Below, one piece after another: positions 6-22,232 of a DNA stretch of 33,163 nucleotides. Below the pieces are notes generated by a model. It was not told the origin of the DNA, searched no databases, and saw only the letters and a list, made by a program, of their open reading frames with translations. The stretch comes from Gemmatimonadota bacterium (GTDB lineage: Bacteria > JBHIER01 > G020348925). Where the stretch lies: positions 888,376-921,538 of the forward strand of contig CP070758.1 of assembly GCA_020348925.1 (NCBI GenBank), given 5' to 3'. A program made the translations under genes and the position numbers. Position 1 is the first letter of the stretch. Each line of letters begins with the position of its first letter.

Positions 6-3000
6 ATGGCTTGTGTGATGTTTCTGTTTTGGAGTTCAATGTCCTTCGCTCAATGTACGGTCACGGTGACCGCACCGAATGGGAGTGAATCCTGGTGCGC
101 GGGTGAAATCCAGGATATAACGTGGTCCTCGTCGAATACCAGCGGTGATGCAAAGATCGAGTACTCAACAGATGGCGGCTCGAAATGGCTGGAAGTGATC
201 GGCAGTACTCCTGACGACGGCGCCTATGAGTGGACGATTCCGGTAATCTCTTCGACAACCTGTCTGGTAAAAGTCTGTGACGAGTTGGATACCGATTGCT
301 GTGATCAGAGCGACAATACGTTTTCGATTGTTTGCCGGATGAATATCTCATCACCTACTTTCGGAAAAAATTGGTGTGAGGACAGTCTCTATACTGTAAC
401 CTGGACTGCGGAGTGTTGCTTAAGTGGACTATATCGCATCGAATATTCAACGGATGACGGGTCAAGCTGGACAATGGTGGATATGACGGACGGAACATTA
501 TATGATTGGACTGTACCCAAAACGCCCTCCGATAAATGCAGGATAAAAATCTGCTGCGTGGATGAGGATCCCGAGTGCTGCGCCCAGAGCGAAATCTTTT
601 ACATCTGGGAGCGGGCTTTATTGAAGCTGTTTTATGCCACAGCAGGAGATTCCTGGAAGAACAACTCGAACTGGTTGTCGGAAAACGATCCGATCTGGGA
701 TTGGTACGGCGTCACACATGCTAATGGTCGGGCTGAAACGATCGACCTCGCTGACAATGACCTGAATGGGACAATTCCTGCCCAAATAGGTGATTTTGAA
801 GCTCTTCGCGTTTTGCGATTGAATAGTAACACAAAAATTACCGGCAACATCCCTGTTGAGACTGGAAACCTATCCTTGCTGGAAGAGCTACATCTTTCGG
901 GGGATGATTTAACCGGAGAGATCCCGAATGAGATTGGAAACCTGACGGAACTGCGAATTTTGCGCCTCAACAACAATACGCAGCTAACAGGTCCCATTCC
1001 GGATCCAGAGATCGGCAATCTGTCGAAATTGGAAGTGTTGGATCTTTCGGGGGATGATTTAACCGGAGAGATCCCGGATGAGATTGGAAACCTATCCTTG
1101 CTGGAAGAGCTAAATCTTTCGGGGGACAAGTTAAGCGGAGAGATCCCGAATGAGATTGGAAACCTGACGGAATTGCGACTTTTGCGCCTCAACAACAATA
1201 CGCAGCTAACAGGTCCCATTCCGGATCCAGAGATCGGCAATCTGTCGAAACTGGAAGTGTTGGATCTTTCGGGGGATGATTTAACCGGAGAGATCCCGGA
1301 TGAGATTGGAAACCTGACGGAATTGCGACTTTTACGCCTATCTGAGAACGAACTGACTGGTGACATACCGAATATCGGCAGTCTGATCAACTTAGAAGAA
1401 TTGAATGTCTATAATAATGAACTGGAAGGCAACATTCCGGCCAACATAGGATTGTTGACAAATATGCAGATTTTGAACCTTCAACAGAACAATCTGTCCG
1501 GCGGCATTCCGGGTGGCATCTGCAATCTGACAAAGCTGGTCGAGTTGAATCTCTCTGATAACAACCTTAATGGCGGTATCCCGGCCGACATCGGAAATGT
1601 GGCAGGTTCACTGCGCGTTCTGCGCCTCCAGAGAAACAATCTGTCCGGCAGCATTCCGGACGGCATCTGTAATCTGACGAAGCTTGAGGAATTAAATCTC
1701 TCTGAAAATAACTTTAATGGGAGTATCCCGGCCGACATAGGAGATGTGGCAGGTTCACTGCGCGTTCTGCGCCTTCACAGAAACGGCCTGTCTGGGGGTA
1801 TCACTGAAATTGGTAAATTAACAAATTTGGAGGAGCTCAATCTCTCCAGCAATAGCCTGAATGGCGTGATACCGACAACCACTGGAGATCTGACACAACT
1901 GCAGATTCTCCGACTGCACCGCAATGATCTTTCGGGCGTGATTCCAGACGGGATCGGTGCATTAACAGAGCTCGTGGAGTTGTACCTTTCGAGTAACGGC
2001 CTGTCAGGTGGAATTCCTTCCACTATCGACGGATTATCCGCATTGGTAGAATTGGACCTGAGTTACAATCAGCTTGACGGCAACATACCACCTGAGATAG
2101 GAAGTCTGAGTGCATTAAAAGAATTGAATCTTTCGGGAAACCAGCTCGTGGGCGACATCCCGCCCCAGATCAGTAACCTGGTCAAATTGAGAATATTAAA
2201 TCTTTCCGGGAACGCACTCAATGATGTATTCCCCATCGAAATCTTTGCCATGGACACATTGGAGACATTAAACCTTTCGGACAACACCTTATACGGTCCC
2301 ATCTCTTCAGGTATCGGTACGCTTAACTCCTTACGAATCCTGAATCTTTCAACCAATCTGTTCGAGGGTCTTATCCCGAGTCAGATAGGCAACTTAGAAA
2401 AATTGAACTATTTATCCCTGGGATCTAATCTCCTGTCCGGCACAATTCCCTCTGTAATCTGGAATCTGACCTCACTGGAATATTTGGACGTCTCGTCCTG
2501 CGAAAAAATAAAGAGTGAAATTCCCGCATCGATTCAAAATTTGATACATCTGGGAATATGCGACCTTTCTGACGACAGTTTATACGGTTCCATTCCGAGT
2601 GAAATCGGAGAGCTGAGTTCTTTGCGGCAATTGGATCTTTCCTTCAACTGGCTTTCCGGAACCATTCCAGCGACGATAGGAAATCTCGATAATGCGCGAG
2701 CCCTGTCCCTCCAATCAAATCAGCTCTGCGGTGCGATTCCATCTGAGATAGGGAATTTAAGTAACATTGAAGATTTATTCTTGGGCATGAATCGGCTCTC
2801 CGGATCTGTCCCTGACGCTATTATCAGCCTTAGCGAACTTGATGATTTACATATTGGATACAATATGCTCTTCAGCAATGATAGTAACGTGAGGAGTTTT
2901 CTCAATGACAAAGATCCCGACTGGGAGGATACCCAGACCGTGCCACCGATCGACGTGACCATCGATTCTATTACCCACAAGAGCATTGAAGTCAAATGGT

Positions 3001-4886
3001 CACCGATCCCTTACACCTGGGACGACGGCGGATATTGGGTCCAGTATGGCACATCCTCCGGCGCTTACACTGATTCAGTTGGCCAGACTGCCGGAAAACT
3101 GGATACCTCCTTGACCATAACAGATTTGAATACCGATACCGATTACTACTTCGTTGTCAAAACACACACACTGCCCCACGGTTCTCAGAAAAACGATCTC
3201 TACAGTACCATCAGCACGGAAATCATGGCCCGAACCCTGAGGGATGTTGACGAAGATGGAGTCGCAGACGATGATGACAACTGTCCAAACGATGCCAATC
3301 CCGACCAATTGGATAATGATAGTGACGGAGTGGGGAATGTCTGCGACAACTGTCCGGATGTCCATAATCCTGTTCAAACCGATGTCGATGGCGATGGGTT
3401 TGGCGATGCGTGCGATCTCTGCCCAGGTTTTGATGACAGCCAGGATTATGATGGTGATGGTGTTCCTGACGGCTGCGACAACTGTCCGCACACGTGGAAT
3501 GAGGACCAGACGAATTCTGATGACGATAGCCGAGGCGATGTCTGCGACAACTGCCCGGGCGAAGACAATGAGGATCAGGACGATACAGATGGTGATGGAG
3601 CAGGCGATGTCTGTGACCTCTGTCCTGGCTTTAATGATATGCAGAATTCAGACAGTGACGGCATACCGAACGGCTGTGATAATTGCGACTTCGTGGATAA
3701 TCCCGATCAGGCGAATTCAGACACTGATTCCCTCGGAGATGCCTGCGACAACTGTGATTTTATTTACAACGTCGATCAAGCTGATGGAGACCTGAATGAA
3801 CTCGGAATCCCGGCGCCAGATGGAGTTGGTGATGTCTGCGACAATTGTCCGGATGTCCCAAATCCTGCTCAGGAGGACGCTGACGGCGACGGAATTGGTG
3901 ATCACTGCGAGATAGACGCTGATAACGACGGGATCATCAATGATGAGGACAATTGCTGGCAGGACTGGAATCCGGATCAGACAGACGGGGACGGTGATGG
4001 TGTGGGCGATGTCTGCGACAACTGCCCTGGAATTTCTAATCCGGCGTTGGACGATCTTGACGGCGACGGCCATCTTGACCAGGTTGACACCGACGCCGAC
4101 AACATTGGCGATCAATGCGACAATTGTGCAGCCGTTTTCAATCCCCTTCAGGAGGATGGCGACGGCGATGGTCTTGGAGATTCGTGCGACTACTGTCCGA
4201 ACGATCCGATGAACGATGTGGACAGTGACGGTGTCTGTGGTGATGTGGACAACTGCCCGGCCATCTTTAATCCCAACCAGGAAGACGGTGACGGTGATAG
4301 TGTTGGTGATGCCTGCGATGGCTGCCCGGAAGACCCGAATAAAACTGATGAGGGTCTCTGTGGATGTGGAATTCCCGATACCGACGATGACAGCGACAGT
4401 CTGATTTACTGCCATGACAATTGCCCTTTTCACTTCAACCCGGATCAGACCGATGGCGATGGAGACAGCGTTGGTGATATCTGCGATAACTGTCCGACTG
4501 TCGTAAATGAAGATCAGATGGATAGGGATAGAGACGCACTGGGTGATGCCTGTGACAACTGCCCTACTGTTTTTAATCCCGACCAGGCGGATAGCAACGG
4601 CAACGGCATTGGCGATGTGTGTGAGGGCCTGAGGGGAGACGTAACCGGTGACGGAGAAATCAATATCCTGGATGCACTGGCGGTGATCAATCATATTCTG
4701 GGAATCCATGCCTTGGAATACAATGCTCTTTTCCTGGCCGATTGCAACGGAGATGTTGAGATTAACATATTGGATGTGTTGGGTATTGCGAATGTGGTTT
4801 TAGGCATCAGTGAGTGCGAGCCCGCCGCTTTACGAGAGTTACCTGTACGAGAGGGCATGAAGCTGAGGAAAATGCAAAGGCAATAG
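6..4886 (+). CDS. Giant secreted LRR / thrombospondin-3 / dockerin protein (start probably upstream of window)
   Basis: A 1626-residue exported modular protein. Residues 1-17 look like the hydrophobic core and cleavage site (SFAQ|C) of a signal peptide but lack the usual basic N-terminus, and the frame is open to the window edge, so the true start probably lies upstream. Two Kre9/KNH-type beta domains (about 18-108 and 110-200; '[10 protein letters not shown]' and '[10 protein letters not shown]') precede an LRR block (about 203-958) of the plant-like type LxxLxxLdLSxNxLxGxIPxxIGNL. A fibronectin-III-like domain follows (about 980-1077), then a long array of calcium-binding thrombospondin type-3 repeats (DxDGDGxGDxCDNCP, about 1078-1542). 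A C-terminal type-I dockerin (about 1543-1605) has two calcium loops ending INILD. A dockerin implies docking to a cohesin, none of which is encoded here. Likely a surface or extracellular adhesion or scaffold protein; the ligand is unknown. Confidence 0.9.
861..1304 (+). repeat. Two tandem near-identical 222-bp LRR units inside the giant gene
   Basis: The stretch from about 861 recurs at an offset of exactly 222 bp (74 codons, three LRRs). For example 'cctatccttg' is at 869 and 1091, and 'cagctaacag' is at 981 and 1203. Identity is almost complete at the DNA level, including synonymous sites, whereas other LRRs in the gene share only the protein motif. This indicates recent in-frame tandem duplication. 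A further partial copy of the 'gggggatgatttaaccgg' segment follows. Confidence 0.8.
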
Positions 4887-17007: not shown

Positions 17008-17112
17008 CTACATCTTCAAAAAATCCTCAAACACAGCCTCAAGGAAAGCCTTTGATAATTCATGTATAATAACTAAATTAATTCAGATATCTCAGAAATC
17101 TTTCAGATCAAT

Positions 17113-17141
17113 GTAAACCGATTCTCCTCCCAACTCGTCTT
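17113..17141 (+). promoter_or_regulatory. ECF-type promoter upstream of the sigma gene (autoregulation)
   Basis: TGTAAACC (AACC at 17116-17119), exactly 16 nt, then CGTCTT (from 17136). The same AACC-N16-CGTC arrangement occurs upstream of the third HEAT gene at 21381. The AAC/CGTC pair is typical of ECF-sigma promoters. The start of transcription would be near 17147, giving a leader of about 15 nt that contains the Shine-Dalgarno. Confidence 0.55.
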
Positions 17142-17161: not shown

Positions 17162-17743
17162 ATGAAGGATGGTGAGCAGAGGCTCATTGAGCAACTCAAG
17201 GCCGGAGAGACCGAAGCCTTCAGGGAGCTGGTCGAACGATACAAGAAACAGGCGTACTACGTCGCCTACGACCTTATGGGCACTCACGAGGACGCCGAGG
17301 ACATCTCCCAGGAGGCCTTCATCAAGGTGTATCAATCGATCGGGAGCTTTCGGGGCGAAGCCCAGTTCAGCACCTGGTTGTACCGGATTGTAGTGAACCT
17401 ATGTATCAGCGAAAAGAGAAAGAAGAGTTCGAAAGAAATGGAATACTATGGAGATACAATACCCGAGGCAGCGCATCACGCCCAGGACATCGATCCCTCG
17501 GAACACCCGGAAAAGGCCCTTCAGTCCCAAAAAATTCAAGAGCACATCCGGGAGGCTCTGGACAAACTCCCCTCACAACAGAAAACCGTTTTTGTGCTGC
17601 GCTTTTATCAGGATCTGTCCCTCAAGGAAATCGGACGTATTATGAAATTGTCCGAAGGGACGGTGAAAAGTCATCTCTTTCGGACATTGCGAAAATTGAG
17701 AGAATATCTGAAATTCTACGAAGCCGATTTCGGACTAGAATGA
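17162..17743 (+). CDS. ECF-family RNA polymerase sigma factor (RpoE-like)
   Basis: 193 residues, normal for ECF sigmas. Region 2 (about 20-88) includes 'YVAYDLMGTHEDAEDISQEAFIKVY' (residues about 38-62) and 'FSTWLYRIVVNLC', the -10-binding and core-binding parts. Region 4 (about 125-183) includes 'LPSQQKTVFVLRFYQDLSLKEIG' and the helix-turn-helix 'LSEGTVKSHLFRTLRKLR'. Shine-Dalgarno AAGGAGG fixes the start. An anti-sigma gene follows after 11 bp, then three exported HEAT-repeat genes, so it likely drives an envelope-related response. Confidence 0.95.
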   Translation: MKDGEQRLIEQLKAGETEAFRELVERYKKQAYYVAYDLMGTHEDAEDISQEAFIKVYQSIGSFRGEAQFSTWLYRIVVNLCISEKRKKSSKEMEYYGDTIPEAAHHAQDIDPSEHPEKALQSQKIQEHIREALDKLPSQQKTVFVLRFYQDLSLKEIGRIMKLSEGTVKSHLFRTLRKLREYLKFYEADFGLE

Positions 17744-17754
17744 GAGGTTAGAAA

Positions 17755-18594
17755 ATGAAGGCATGCAAAGAATTTAAAAAATTATACGTCGAATACCTCT
17801 TCGGTGAGCTTGAAGCAGAGAAGCGTGGAAACTTCGAGGGCCATTTGTCTCAATGCTCCAATTGCGCGTCCGAACTGGCAGAGATGAGGCGGACTTTGGA
17901 GATGATGGGGCACAGCAGACGTGTGGAACCTCCCGAGGAGTACTGGGACACCTACTGGTCGCGGTTGTCGACTCGTATGGAGAAAGAGCTGGCACCCAAG
18001 ACCCGGGCGAAAATCGGAATCTGGGGGAGAATCAAGGAATCCTTTCCGACCATCCCCAGCCCCGCGTACAGATGGGCGGCCGTGGCAGCAGCCCTGGTTC
18101 TCGGAATTGTTATTGGCAGATATCTCGTCACTTCGGGCGGTGTAAAGGAAGCACCCGTGGCGCAGAGCCCCGCTCAACCGGAACAGGAGATGTACGCCCA
18201 GACTGTGGACTCTCGCGCGGAAAAATACCTTGAGAAATCCAAGATTTTTCTCCTCGGCTTTGTGAACACCAACGGAGAACTCGAAGAGGGCGATTTCGAT
18301 ATGTCCCGGCAGCGTGATATTTCCCAGGGCCTCATCCAGGAGGCCTCATACCTGAAGGATAACTTACAGGGACATTCGCAGCAGAGGCTCAGAACGCTCA
18401 TTGAGGACCTGGAAACCATTCTCATCGAGATCGCCAATCTTGAAGAACAGGAAGATCTTCCCGACATCGAGCTCATCCGGGACGGCATCGACCGGAGGGG
18501 CATTTTACTGAAGATCAATGTGCATCAGATGAAAGATGAGTTTGATCGAGAAGATATGAAATCGAAGAAAGAAAGGGACAAAACACTCATCTGA
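17755..18594 (+). CDS. Membrane anti-sigma factor with zinc-finger (zf-HC2) domain
   Basis: 279 residues. The N-terminal anti-sigma zinc site is complete: C4-x25-H30-x3-C34-x2-C37 (HLSQCSNC). A single transmembrane helix (about 107-125, WAAVAAALVLGIVIGRYLV) separates the cytoplasmic sigma-binding part from a periplasmic domain of about 150 residues. The periplasmic part is mostly helical and charged, with 'SRAEKYLEKSKIFLLGF' and a possible coiled coil at about 200-270. It probably holds the ECF sigma inactive until a periplasmic signal releases it. The 12-bp gap to the HEAT gene indicates one operon. Confidence 0.9.
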   Translation: MKACKEFKKLYVEYLFGELEAEKRGNFEGHLSQCSNCASELAEMRRTLEMMGHSRRVEPPEEYWDTYWSRLSTRMEKELAPKTRAKIGIWGRIKESFPTIPSPAYRWAAVAAALVLGIVIGRYLVTSGGVKEAPVAQSPAQPEQEMYAQTVDSRAEKYLEKSKIFLLGFVNTNGELEEGDFDMSRQRDISQGLIQEASYLKDNLQGHSQQRLRTLIEDLETILIEIANLEEQEDLPDIELIRDGIDRRGILLKINVHQMKDEFDREDMKSKKERDKTLI

Positions 18595-18623
18595 GGCTCT
18601 ATACTTTGAAAGGAGTGATTGAA

Positions 18624-19454
18624 ATGGAAAAGAGAACACTATTCATCGGCGTCACGATACTATGTCTCATGAGCACTATTGCCCAGAGCAATGCCCTAAG
18701 CGCATATATGACTTCGTCATCGATTTCCATCAGCGGCGCTCAAGATGATGAAGATCGTTCCGCATCAAGAGAGGCAAGAGAAGCTTACAGGAAGGCGTAT
18801 GATCTCATCCTGGACGAAAATTGGCCGGACGCCCGGAAGAGTCTGTCGACATTCCTCGAGAAGTACGCCGAAAGCGCCTATTCTGACGACGCCAGTTTCT
18901 GGATCAGTTACACCCTTGAAAAACAGGGAAAATACGAGGACGCTTTCAAGTCCTATCAGGGTTTTGTGGAAGCATACACAAACAGCAAATATGTCGATGA
19001 CGCCGAATCAAACATGATAGCCTTGGCCAAGAAACTCTATCAGATGGGTAAGACCCAGTACAAGATCTACTTGGATGAAGCCGGCGAAGATCCTGATGAG
19101 GACATCAAGCTTCAAGCTCTGGCAGCCCTCGGTCAGATGGACAGCGAGGAAGCCCTGCCCATCCTCAAGGATGTCCTGAAAACGAGTAAGAGCAAAAAAC
19201 TGAGAGAGAAAGCGGTCTTTGTCATCAGCCAGATTGGCGGTAACGAAGCGTTAGAAACCCTCCTCGACTTAGCCAAGAACGATCCTGATCCTGATGTTCG
19301 TGAAAACGCGGTTTTCTGGATCGGTCAGGAAGGAGGACGCGAATCTCTCGGCGTGCTGATGGATGTTTTCAAGTCAACCCAGAATCAGCAGGTGCGCGAG
19401 AAGGTCGTCTTTTCGATTTCACAGATCGGTGGGCCGGAGGCCGTTGATATTTAG
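18624..19454 (+). CDS. Exported TPR-like/HEAT-repeat protein, N-terminal part up to an in-frame amber codon
   Basis: 276 residues before TAG. Start ATG 18624 is preceded by AAAGGAGTG. The signal peptide covers about 1-25. Residues about 48-135 form helical repeats like YbgF/CpoB TPRs ('YDLILDENWPDARKSLSTFL', 'ALEKQGKYEDAF'-type). From about 150, HEAT repeats (PBS-lyase type) begin, with alternating signatures AVFWIGQEGG and VVFSISQIGG. Translation stops at 19452-19454 in the middle of a repeat, where sister repeats have leucine (TTG to TAG). The same frame continues with five or more intact repeats to 20150. This is therefore a recent nonsense mutation, a sequencing error or readthrough of a gene of 508 sense-plus-amber codons. 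Confidence 0.8.
   Translation: MEKRTLFIGVTILCLMSTIAQSNALSAYMTSSSISISGAQDDEDRSASREAREAYRKAYDLILDENWPDARKSLSTFLEKYAESAYSDDASFWISYTLEKQGKYEDAFKSYQGFVEAYTNSKYVDDAESNMIALAKKLYQMGKTQYKIYLDEAGEDPDEDIKLQALAALGQMDSEEALPILKDVLKTSKSKKLREKAVFVISQIGGNEALETLLDLAKNDPDPDVRENAVFWIGQEGGRESLGVLMDVFKSTQNQQVREKVVFSISQIGGPEAVDI
19452..19454 (+). other. In-frame amber codon splitting the first HEAT gene
   Basis: The repeat reads EAVDI-stop-TTIAKTDKD, where sister repeats read EALETLLDLAKNDPD and KAIETLIDIAKNDKD. The stop falls exactly on a conserved Leu position. Several neighbouring genes (for example those ending at 4886, 7546, 13359 and 22232) use TAG as their terminal stop, so amber is not globally reassigned here. 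Confidence 0.85.
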
Positions 19455-20150
19455 ACAACAATCGCCAAAACCGACAAAGACCCGGACATCAGGGAAAACG
19501 CCGTTTTCTGGATCGGTCAGGAAGGGGATGAGGACGTCCTCGACGCCCTGTGGGATATTTTCAACAGCACGGAGGATAAGGGGGTACGCGAAAAGGTGGT
19601 CTTCTCTATCTCACAGGTGGGCGGCAGAGAGGCCATGGGAATACTCGAGAGGATAGCCCGGGACAATTCGGACTCTGAAGTCCAGGAAAAAGCGATCTTC
19701 TGGATCGGCCAAGAAGGGGGATCGGAGAGTCTCGAAATTCTGACGGATATTATCGATGAGGTCATAGAGTCAGAAATTCGGAAGAAGGTTGTCTTCTCGA
19801 TTTCACAGATCGGCGGGTCGAAGGCTATTGAAACTCTCATTGACATTGCCAAAAACGACAAGGATCCTGAGGTCCGGGAGAATGCGATCTTTTGGATCGG
19901 CCAGGAAGGCGGGACTGAAGGTCTGGACGCGTTGTGGGATATCTATCAAACAACGACCGACCGGGAAGTCAAGGAGAAGATCGTCTTTTCGATCAGCGAA
20001 GTGGGTGGAAAACGTGCCGTCGAAAAGTTAGTCCTCATAGCCAAAAACGACAAGGATATCGAGGTCAGAAAAAAAGCCATTTTCTGGTTGGGTGAATCCG
20101 GTGATCCGAGGGCACGCGAGGCGTTGCTTGAAATATTGGAAGGGAAATAA
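19455..20150 (+). pseudogene. HEAT-repeat protein, C-terminal part downstream of the amber codon
   Basis: 231 further codons in the same frame as 18624-19454. They contain alternating HEAT repeats 'RENAVFWIGQEG' / 'REKVVFSISQVGG', ending in 'LGESGDPRAREALLEILEGK'. No Shine-Dalgarno precedes the first internal GTG (19596) or the other internal starts, so independent translation is unlikely. It shows no further stop or frameshift, so the disruption is either very young or tolerated through readthrough. It is 21 bp from the next HEAT gene start. Confidence 0.75.
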
Positions 20151-20171
20151 ACAGTGATGGAGGTGATTGAA

Positions 20172-21371
20172 ATGAAACAATCCAATCATATTCGTCAGAT
20201 CGTCGCAGGTATTCTCATCGCGGCGGCTTGCTTCGGATGGTATGTCTTGACGGAGGGCAAAATACCCCAGGTGGTGCGATACGATGGCGGGGATGAGCCG
20301 TTAGTTGAAAAATGGAAATGGGCTCTGAATGAGGGGAAATCCGTTCAAGATCATGATGCCTTCTGGATCGGATACTCCGTTACAAAATGGATGAGCCCGC
20401 ACGAGTTCTACGGCGATGACTGTATCTACCGCAGAGGCGGTGGCAGAACCATTCAGCAGCTCATAAGTGGGGATACGATCATCCGCTTGGAGGAGACGGA
20501 TGAGGGGGACGACCTGAGACGGATTACCCTCGGGGCTTTGAAGAACCTTGGCGACGATGAGGCGGCTGAAAAGCTTCAGCGTGAATACCATGATGATGAG
20601 GACCGTGCCGAGAGAGATCTCGCCATCTTGGCTTATTATGAAACGACAAAAAACACACCGCGTCTGGAGGATGTGAAAATTCGGAGGATGGACCGAAGAT
20701 ATGAACCTGAAGGAGATGTACTGTACTGGTTGGGGCACACGGAGGATGGGGAAAGTATCGATTTATTATGGGATTTATTCCACGAAGCCGACCGGTTGAA
20801 GTTGCAGAAACATATCGCGACAGCGATTGGGGTCCACGATGCACCAAAAGAGGTTGTTCCTCTCCTGGAAAAGATCGCTTGTGGAGACTACCGAGAGAAG
20901 CTGAGGGAAAACGCCATCTTCTGGTTGGGTCAACAGAAAGGAGAAGAAAGCCTGAGGGTTCTTAAAAGGTTGCTGCGGGACGAGAGGGATTTCGAATTGA
21001 GGGAGAAAGTTATTTTTTCAATATACTGTTACGGCGGTGAAGAGGCTATCTCCATTCTCTCCGATGCTGCCCGCGGGGACCGATCCACGAAGGTGAGGAA
21101 AGAGGCCGTCTTCTGGCTGGGACAGCTGGCGGCGGCAAAGACCCTTGATATACTGTCCGATATCGCGATCGATTCGGAGGAAACGGAGATTCAGGAGCAC
21201 GCGGTCTTTGCCATCAGTCAGCACTCCGATGACGAAGCCGTACCGACACTGATCAAAATTGCCAAGACACATAGAAACCCTGAAGTCAGAAAGAAAGCCA
21301 TTTTCTGGCTCGGCCAGACTGAGGATGAACGGGCACTCGATTTCTTTGTGGAACTTTTAAAAGGTGATTGA
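20172..21371 (+). CDS. Second exported/anchored HEAT-repeat protein
   Basis: 399 residues from ATG 20172, chosen because GGAGGTGATTGAA precedes it, the same leader as the first HEAT gene; GTG 20154 is in frame upstream but poorly placed. The N-terminus has a basic start and a hydrophobic segment (about 8-26), a signal peptide or anchor. Residues about 35-150 are unrecognised, with a 'DAFWIGYSVTKWM' segment echoing the repeat signature. HEAT/PBS-lyase repeats (about 150-399) again alternate AIFWLGQ and VIFSIYC/AVFAISQ types. Likely a periplasmic protein-binding scaffold made with its two neighbours; ligand unknown. Confidence 0.85.
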   Translation: MKQSNHIRQIVAGILIAAACFGWYVLTEGKIPQVVRYDGGDEPLVEKWKWALNEGKSVQDHDAFWIGYSVTKWMSPHEFYGDDCIYRRGGGRTIQQLISGDTIIRLEETDEGDDLRRITLGALKNLGDDEAAEKLQREYHDDEDRAERDLAILAYYETTKNTPRLEDVKIRRMDRRYEPEGDVLYWLGHTEDGESIDLLWDLFHEADRLKLQKHIATAIGVHDAPKEVVPLLEKIACGDYREKLRENAIFWLGQQKGEESLRVLKRLLRDERDFELREKVIFSIYCYGGEEAISILSDAARGDRSTKVRKEAVFWLGQLAAAKTLDILSDIAIDSEETEIQEHAVFAISQHSDDEAVPTLIKIAKTHRNPEVRKKAIFWLGQTEDERALDFFVELLKGD

Positions 21372-21377
21372 TTTCGG

Positions 21378-21407
21378 TGTAACCTTTAAAAGACTCGGAA
21401 CGTCTAA
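21378..21407 (+). promoter_or_regulatory. ECF-type promoter upstream of the third HEAT gene
   Basis: TGTAACC (21378-21384), a 16-nt spacer, then CGTCTAA (21401-21407). Motif and spacing are identical to the sigma-gene promoter at 17116-17139. It would give a leader of about 53 nt to ATG 21465, letting the third HEAT gene be induced separately. Confidence 0.6.
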
Positions 21408-21464
21408 CCATACGAAAGAACGATTCAATTTTCAATTTAATATATTAAAGAGGAGGGATGAAAA

Positions 21465-22232
21465 ATGAAGCGTACTCTTATCGCACTCGTTCTCGTAAGC
21501 CTCATCGGTCTTCTCGTCCTTTCATACGCCGTTGCACATGATGATGAAAGTGGTCACAAGAAGGAGAAGGCGAAGGCCAAGGTTTATTGGAATGATGATT
21601 GGGATCTTGATTTTCATCACGATTGGCAATGGGATTTCTCGGACCTCGAAGAATTAGAAAGTCTCGAAGCTCTGAAAGGTCTCGAAGCTTTAAAAGGATT
21701 GGAGGCCCTTGAGGATTTGGATTTCGACTTTGACTTCGATTTCGAGTTCGATTTTGATCATTGTTTCGAAGCGTGGGAACATACGGATAATATATGGGAC
21801 CATTTACCTGTTCTTCCAAATCCGGTTATAGCCCTTCCACTGCCTCCCCTACCCCCTCTCCCTGCGATGACGAAGGACTGTCTTTCCCATTTCCACTGGG
21901 ATTGGGATGGGTGCGACGACTACATAGAGCATGAGGATCTCACGGAAGAGGAGGAATTACGCCTGCATACCCTCTCCGCCCTCCGCAAGTTGGACGGAGA
22001 TGAATCCATACCCATTTTAGAGGAAATATTGAGAGAGGAAGAAAATCCCGCCATTCGGAGCAAAGCACTTTCTGTTCTGAATATGATCGACGATGATCGA
22101 GTCGTCCCCATTTTGGGAGAGGTGGCGAAACACGACAGTAATCATCGGATCAAAAAAAGAGCCATATATTATTTGGGAATATCGGGCGACGACCGGGCCT
22201 TAGAGATCCTGAAGGAGATCTTGGAAAAGTAG
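21465..22232 (+). CDS. Secreted low-complexity protein with C-terminal HEAT repeats
   Basis: 255 residues with a clear signal peptide (MKRTLIALVLVSLIGLLVLS, cleavage near AVA|H). The mature N-terminal part is strikingly biased: Trp/Asp/His-rich (WNDDWDLDFHHDWQWDF), then repeats of LEALKG, then DFDFDFDFEFDFDH, then a proline stretch (PLPPLPPLPA). The C-terminal third (about 160-255) holds three short HEAT repeats ('YYLGISGDDRALEILKEILEK' at the end). Shine-Dalgarno AGAGGAGGG is strong. The acidic/His/Trp region could bind cations or carbohydrate, but that is speculation. It is convergent with the next gene, with only 3 bp between stop codons. Confidence 0.85.
   Translation: MKRTLIALVLVSLIGLLVLSYAVAHDDESGHKKEKAKAKVYWNDDWDLDFHHDWQWDFSDLEELESLEALKGLEALKGLEALEDLDFDFDFDFEFDFDHCFEAWEHTDNIWDHLPVLPNPVIALPLPPLPPLPAMTKDCLSHFHWDWDGCDDYIEHEDLTEEEELRLHTLSALRKLDGDESIPILEEILREEENPAIRSKALSVLNMIDDDRVVPILGEVAKHDSNHRIKKRAIYYLGISGDDRALEILKEILEK

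Follow-up and report, generated by a model that had tools for sequence, protein, structure and literature searches.

In the Sigma-E/RseA/RseB and AlgU/MucA/MucB systems, an extracytoplasmic function (ECF) sigma factor is accompanied by a membrane anti-sigma factor and by an exported product of the sigma operon. This exported co-regulator, RseB or MucB, binds the periplasmic domain of the anti-sigma factor (PMC7593790). In BlaR1, the C-terminal extracellular part of the receptor is the sensor (PMC7593790). Here, we describe a locus related to these systems in a 33,163-nucleotide stretch of a Gemmatimonadota bacterium genome (assembly GCA_020348925.1, contig CP070758.1, positions 888,376–921,538), hereafter the window. 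The locus encodes an ECF sigma factor, an anti-sigma factor that resembles RsiW of Bacillus subtilis and three predicted exported HEAT-repeat proteins, HEAT1, HEAT2 and HEAT3.

We propose, with moderate confidence, that these genes constitute an autoregulated ECF/RsiW-like anti-sigma operon whose exported HEAT solenoids serve as its input arm in the periplasm. That the HEAT proteins lie on the input side of the pathway is itself a reasonably probable reading of the sequences, preferred over an output role mainly because HEAT modules in other loci are fused to M56/BlaR1 peptidases and to zf-HC2 anti-sigma factors. The HEAT proteins probably monitor the condition of the cell envelope or buffer it, and 'envelope stress' would be a putative label for the window system.

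Operon organisation, promoter and conservation

The operon comprises the following features.
17112–17139, + strand: predicted ECF-type promoter, with TGTAAACC at 17112–17119, a 16-nt spacer and CGTC at 17136–17139
17162–17743, + strand: ECF sigma factor (SigW-like), 193 residues; Pfam Sigma70_r2 at 1.1e-19 and r4 at 1.7e-18
17755–18594, + strand: anti-sigma factor; zf-HC2 at 2.9e-7, transmembrane helix, periplasmic helical domain
18624–19454, + strand: HEAT1, first part; signal segment, TPR/YfiO-like region and four HEAT repeats, ending at the TAG at 19452–19454
19455–20150, + strand: HEAT1, remainder after the TAG; seven alternating HEAT repeats, frame kept, without a signal sequence of its own
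20172–21371, + strand: HEAT2; export segment, alpha/beta N-terminal domain (W.WA...FWIGYS motif) and HEAT solenoid
21465–22232, + strand: HEAT3; signal peptide, low-complexity (L-x-x)n and (DF)n region and about three HEAT repeats

A preliminary description of the locus had listed an ECF sigma factor, a zf-HC2 anti-sigma factor and three HEAT-repeat proteins, and Pfam matches confirm this layout. HEAT_2 is matched with E-values of 5.6e-24 and 2.7e-32 in the two parts of HEAT1, 8.7e-29 in HEAT2 and 2e-16 in HEAT3 (above cut-off). The open reading frame (ORF) called for HEAT1 begins at TTG 18606, and an ATG with a ribosome-binding site lies at 18624; the HEAT2 call begins at GTG 20154, with the likely ATG at 20172.

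A profile scan of 84,980 species genomes with a C-terminal HEAT alignment, blind to neighbouring genes, retained 80 loci. ECF, anti-sigma and HEAT genes lie on the same strand in 62 of them, one has ECF and HEAT genes, 12 are truncated at a contig end, and five have neither partner. The gene order is thus kept in relatives: where upstream sequence is available (68 HEAT loci), 62 carry all three components, mostly in the order ECF–anti-sigma–HEAT1–HEAT2, with median intergenic gaps of −11, 10 and 12 nt. With phylum names as deposited, the 62 operons span at least seven phyla, among them Acidobacteriota, Aminicenantes, Calditrichota, KSB1, Gemmatimonadota, Ignavibacteriota and one Deferribacteres record. 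In a second sample of 386 genomes spread over families and also picked blind to neighbours, HEAT2-type proteins occur in seven genomes, six times with ECF and anti-sigma genes upstream and once fused behind BlaI and M56/BlaR1. Prevalence was taken from HEAT2 because the anti-sigma alignment, run over the same 386 genomes, finds mostly generic zf-HC2 proteins. A single-sequence anti-sigma scan of the genome contigs gave no match, and the compared genome set holds no near relative of the window's genome. HEAT2 orthologues are present in other phyla; locus L094 has a third gene resembling HEAT3, and L112 has a low-complexity gene comparable to it.

The predicted promoter ends 22 bp 5′ of the ECF ATG and combines an AAC-type −35 with a CGTC-type −10 element, the usual layout of ECF promoters. 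ECF genes of KSB1/Calditrichota are preceded by TGTAAACC-N16-CGTCTTA, those of Acidobacteriota by a CTAACCG-N-GTCTAA form. The general pattern, AACC-N14..18 followed by CGTC, GTCT or variants, is found in 42 of 64 ECF upstream regions, compared with a shuffle mean of 2.7 (maximum 6). Because an ECF-type promoter precedes these operons, the sigma factor very probably directs transcription of the whole operon, and the HEAT genes are probably controlled by it. The suggestion in the preliminary description that the HEAT proteins are under ECF control is therefore backed by a conserved promoter motif. Sigma-70-type promoter and terminator scans remained at shuffle level. Across the window's genome the ECF pattern is near chance (seven matches vs four in a reversed control), and a genome-wide regulon is not claimed from it.

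Each of the three window HEAT-repeat proteins begins with a hydrophobic, export-type segment. By a hydropathy rule, not a trained predictor, such a segment is present in 133 of 152 HEAT ORFs in related loci, in none of 73 ECFs and in 284 of 723 other ORFs. The HEAT proteins are accordingly predicted to be exported, as had been proposed.

Loci of related type also occur elsewhere in the window's genome. L031:5037-7811 (G000:C1:4699536-4702310) is a second ECF/anti-sigma/TPR-HEAT operon, whose TPR-HEAT protein has an uncharacterised C-terminal domain in place of the alternating array. A near-identical copy of this protein at L039:2971-5070 (G000:C1:2679970-2682069) lies beside a transposase-like ORF, an apparent recent duplication. 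At L033/L173 (G000:C1:3538332-3541988), BlaI and an M56-HEAT gene diverge from a DUF4097 gene, and about 68 bp upstream of the latter stands TGTAAACC-N16-CGTC, the one further place in this genome where the window motif recurs exactly and with equal spacing. In the window itself, the downstream neighbour of HEAT3 is a radical SAM gene on the opposite strand, and positions 6-4886 encode an exported protein of 1626 residues with leucine-rich repeats, thrombospondin type 3 repeats, fn3 and a C-terminal dockerin.

Sigma factor, anti-sigma factor and HEAT fusions

The window ECF consists of sigma regions 2 and 4 only. Its best NCBIfam model is SigW, with a score under the model cut-off. HEAT-adjacent ECFs cluster in a quick tree (15 label changes vs 45 in shuffles), and their true clustering must be stronger, because several of the rows labelled 'other' are duplicate or truncated copies of HEAT loci. 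The window ECF falls among the main HEAT-linked ECFs, with moderate to weak deep support; Gemmatimonadota form a separate group.

The anti-sigma factor is RsiW-like in sequence and predicted structure. A zf-HC2/class I anti-sigma domain (residues ∼1–80) is followed by a transmembrane helix (∼103–127) and a periplasmic helical domain (∼143–278). Residues His30, Cys34 and Cys37 of the HX3CX2C zinc finger are near-invariant across 44 homologues, and 61 of 65 homologues have a single transmembrane helix; in the window copy, hydropathy reaches 2.2 near residue 107. Profile comparison matches the cytoplasmic part to RsiW (5wuq) at 1.4e-10. The AlphaFold model (predicted local distance difference test, pLDDT, 86.5) includes helix 103–127, and its top Foldseek match is again 5wuq, with a probability of 1.00 and a template modelling score of 0.79 on the target, but an E-value of 0.42. 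Beyond the RsiW part, Foldseek found no fold match for the periplasmic helical domain. M50 and PrsW-type proteases are encoded in the window's genome; both are common generally.

HEAT modules are joined to membrane signalling proteins of two kinds. At L177:6179-9456 (G172), BlaI adjoins a 906-residue protein that combines an M56/BlaR1 peptidase with a complete HEAT2, including its N-terminal domain and repeats; the HEAT2 part matches HEAT2 of G190 at 8e-39 and window HEAT2 at 3e-28. In L105 (Latescibacterota), BlaI and an M56-HEAT protein whose repeats are of the same type (FALSQ/FWLSQ) lie between the ECF and HEAT2. In Ignavibacteria, a zf-HC2 anti-sigma factor carries C-terminal HEAT repeats, and the operon has HEAT2 and no separate HEAT1; the gene order in L138 is ECF/anti-sigma-HEAT/DUF4097-like/HEAT2. 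A similar arrangement exists in the window's genome at L032:3355-6739 (G000:C1:3384354-3387738), with an ECF, a zf-HC2 anti-sigma factor with C-terminal HEAT and two DUF4097-looking proteins.

Alternating HEAT repeats and their concave face

HEAT1 consists of a TPR/YfiO (BamD, YbgF)-like N-terminal part followed by 11 repeats of 32 residues. At the DNA level the repeat spacing is 192 nt, or two repeats. Mean repeat identity is 0.53 at even lags and ∼0.36 at odd lags, and the difference between same-parity and cross-parity identity is 0.166 (permutation p = 0.008). The two repeat types read roughly VRKKAIFWLGQS.DPRAL and VRKKAVFALSQLP.D.GVP.LI.IAK, and both share a Phe (80%) that is followed four residues later by Gln (70%). 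Among neighbour pairs in ∼925 repeats from the window and related loci, 589 are Trp/non-Trp, 90 non-Trp/non-Trp and one Trp/Trp; these sequences are related by descent and are not independent events, and they span several phyla. HEAT2 repeats alternate with and without Trp, and HEAT3, with about three repeats, has no clear alternation. The preliminary description had reported strict alternation of FWIGQEGG-type and FSISQIGG-type units in the first two proteins: the two-repeat period is real, but HEAT2 lacks literal FSISQIGG units. Its further proposal of amplification by unit duplication is unsupported as a recent event. DNA identity at lag 2 is only 59%, and the pattern is common to several phyla; the alternation is therefore, on sequence grounds, old and maintained, and recent tandem amplification was rejected.

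The AlphaFold model of HEAT2 (pLDDT 90.4, predicted template modelling score 0.83) has an alpha/beta N-terminal domain, for which no structural match was found. Its HEAT solenoid matches the artificial alphaRep binders. These PBS-type HEAT repeats belong to the same family as the window repeats by sequence and fold. In our reading of the alphaRep motif, the conserved Phe aligns with alphaRep position 26 and the Gln with position 30; in alternate repeats, position 27 is Trp. Positions 26 and 30 both figure in the table of variable positions that belong to the binding surface of alphaReps (PMC3754942), and alphaRep targets are bound on the concave face (PMC6362204). Whereas this face is hypervariable in alphaReps, the window-type repeats mostly have Phe26 and Gln30 across phyla. 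Because it is largely invariant here, the Phe-x-x-x-Gln ladder suggests, by comparison with alphaReps, a regular ligand. The WxxxN ladder of importin-alpha and other armadillo proteins is alike by analogy only, in that recurring aromatic-xxx-amide pairs line the groove of a solenoid. The three-helix WxxxN repeats of armadillo proteins are absent from the window HEAT proteins, whose repeats are instead of the HEAT family, with two helices per 32 residues and FxxxQ.

The low-complexity stretch of HEAT3 reads LESLEALKGLEALKGLEAL...DFDFDFDFEF. Such (L-x-x)n stretches are present in 13 of 158 HEAT proteins, compared with 3.9 in shuffles. Long runs are found at 21630-21760 of the window (HEAT3) and in L167, L149, L146 and L094, all in exported HEAT proteins of these operons.

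The HEAT-repeat content of all three proteins is confirmed, but the first is not one intact ORF, a point that the preliminary description had missed. An in-frame TAG at 19452–19454 interrupts HEAT1, and the 231 codons beyond it keep both frame and repeat motifs to 20150. Recoding of this TAG is unsupported, because HEAT3 itself stops at TAG.

Function and relation to described systems

By analogy with related systems, the anti-sigma factor would sequester the sigma factor and release it through regulated proteolysis. We propose that the HEAT proteins would engage the periplasmic domain of the anti-sigma factor and thereby control its proteolysis. A ligand of regular, extended form, for example an envelope polymer or unfolded polypeptide, may bind to the concave face of the HEAT proteins, and ligand binding would alter the contact between HEAT protein and anti-sigma factor. 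The latter would then undergo regulated intramembrane proteolysis in the manner of RsiW. Once freed, the sigma factor would raise expression of its own operon, yielding more HEAT protein. The identity of the ligand, the sign of regulation and ligand mimicry by (L-x-x)n stretches are speculative. In an extended form that we consider rather doubtful, the HEAT2-type alpha/beta cap and the solenoid with its near-invariant Phe/Gln ladder and alternate Trp would be an interchangeable periplasmic sensor of one regular extended envelope polymer, deployed in two unrelated signalling systems: free beside ECF and anti-sigma factor, and as part of BlaR1-type protease fusions. Built-in mimics of the ligand would then be provided by the (L-x-x)n stretches in HEAT3 and in some HEAT1 proteins.

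Several observations weigh against an input arm. Five HEAT loci (L093, L094, L121, L129 and L161) have no adjacent ECF or anti-sigma gene, and among the homologues Gemmatimonadota anti-sigma factors are without the zinc finger. Genes activated by an ECF encode outputs just as often as regulators. An output role is unlikely, if still credible: here the HEAT proteins would be ECF-induced periplasmic chaperones or scaffolds that bind unfolded or misassembled envelope material and have no part in sensing. The position of the HEAT genes behind the ECF's own promoter, the TPR/YfiO-like start of HEAT1 and a concave aromatic/amide ladder suited to client binding all agree with such a role. Outputs, however, seldom remain beside the sigma gene across so many phyla, and the fusion of HEAT2 and the same repeat type behind M56/BlaR1, and of HEAT to anti-sigma factors, is expected of sensors. 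It is very unlikely that the operon instead encodes envelope assembly machinery, with TPR/HEAT scaffolds for an outer-membrane, polymer or surface structure under their own ECF switch and stress incidental. The YfiO/BamD/YbgF-like region of HEAT1 and the recurrence of DUF4097 proteins near related loci would fit this idea, but genes 3′ of HEAT2 differ between genomes, and the operons share no recurrent assembly enzyme or transporter.

The interrupted HEAT1 also counts against an input arm in this particular bacterium, since the system may be impaired there. A genuine nonsense mutation in a locus that is decaying and falling out of use is a possible, if somewhat unlikely, explanation, and it is compatible with any functional reading of the intact operons in other genomes. 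It would account for the in-frame TAG, for which the use of TAG as the HEAT3 stop does not suggest recoding. Against decay stand the preserved frame and motifs after the TAG and the intact ECF, anti-sigma factor, HEAT2, HEAT3 and promoter; in a compared set without a near relative, moreover, loss is indistinguishable from assembly error or polymorphism.

If the proposed input arm is correct, a HEAT-solenoid input component would be added to ECF envelope signalling. The operon is common to Acidobacteriota, Aminicenantes, KSB1, Calditrichota, Gemmatimonadota and others, mostly uncultured bacteria whose stress responses are almost uncharted. With the same sensor in two signalling chassis, the nature of the ligand could be tested directly on isolated domains; the promoter motif common to the operons is a handle on the regulon. 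In line with the preliminary description, which knew of no such pathway, the literature searched, as far as its text was accessible, gave no description of HEAT proteins with ECF, anti-sigma factor, BlaR1 or M56/BlaI; the ECF group may figure in an existing ECF classification.

Among described systems, Sigma-W/RsiW of B. subtilis shares with the window a SigW-like ECF and a zf-HC2 class I anti-sigma domain with a single transmembrane helix, and among solved structures RsiW comes closest to the window anti-sigma factor. The periplasmic helical domain, without a confident PDB match, sets the window protein apart, and to our knowledge RsiW has no accompanying HEAT proteins. The exported co-regulators RseB and MucB have the role proposed here for the window HEAT proteins, but they are not HEAT proteins, and neither family searches nor the HEAT2 structure match found an RseB/MucB fold or RseB-type domain in the window HEAT proteins. 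In BlaR1/MecR1–BlaI/MecI, the resemblance lies in domain order: in L177 and L105, HEAT modules stand C-terminal to M56, with BlaI adjoining, at the position of the beta-lactam sensor of BlaR1. There, HEAT repeats replace the penicillin-binding domain, and the window operon has no M56 gene by Pfam. An ECF with an anti-sigma factor and an exported co-regulator is thus a known kind of system; the HEAT component, the two-repeat code and the sharing of the module with BlaR1-type proteases appear to be new.

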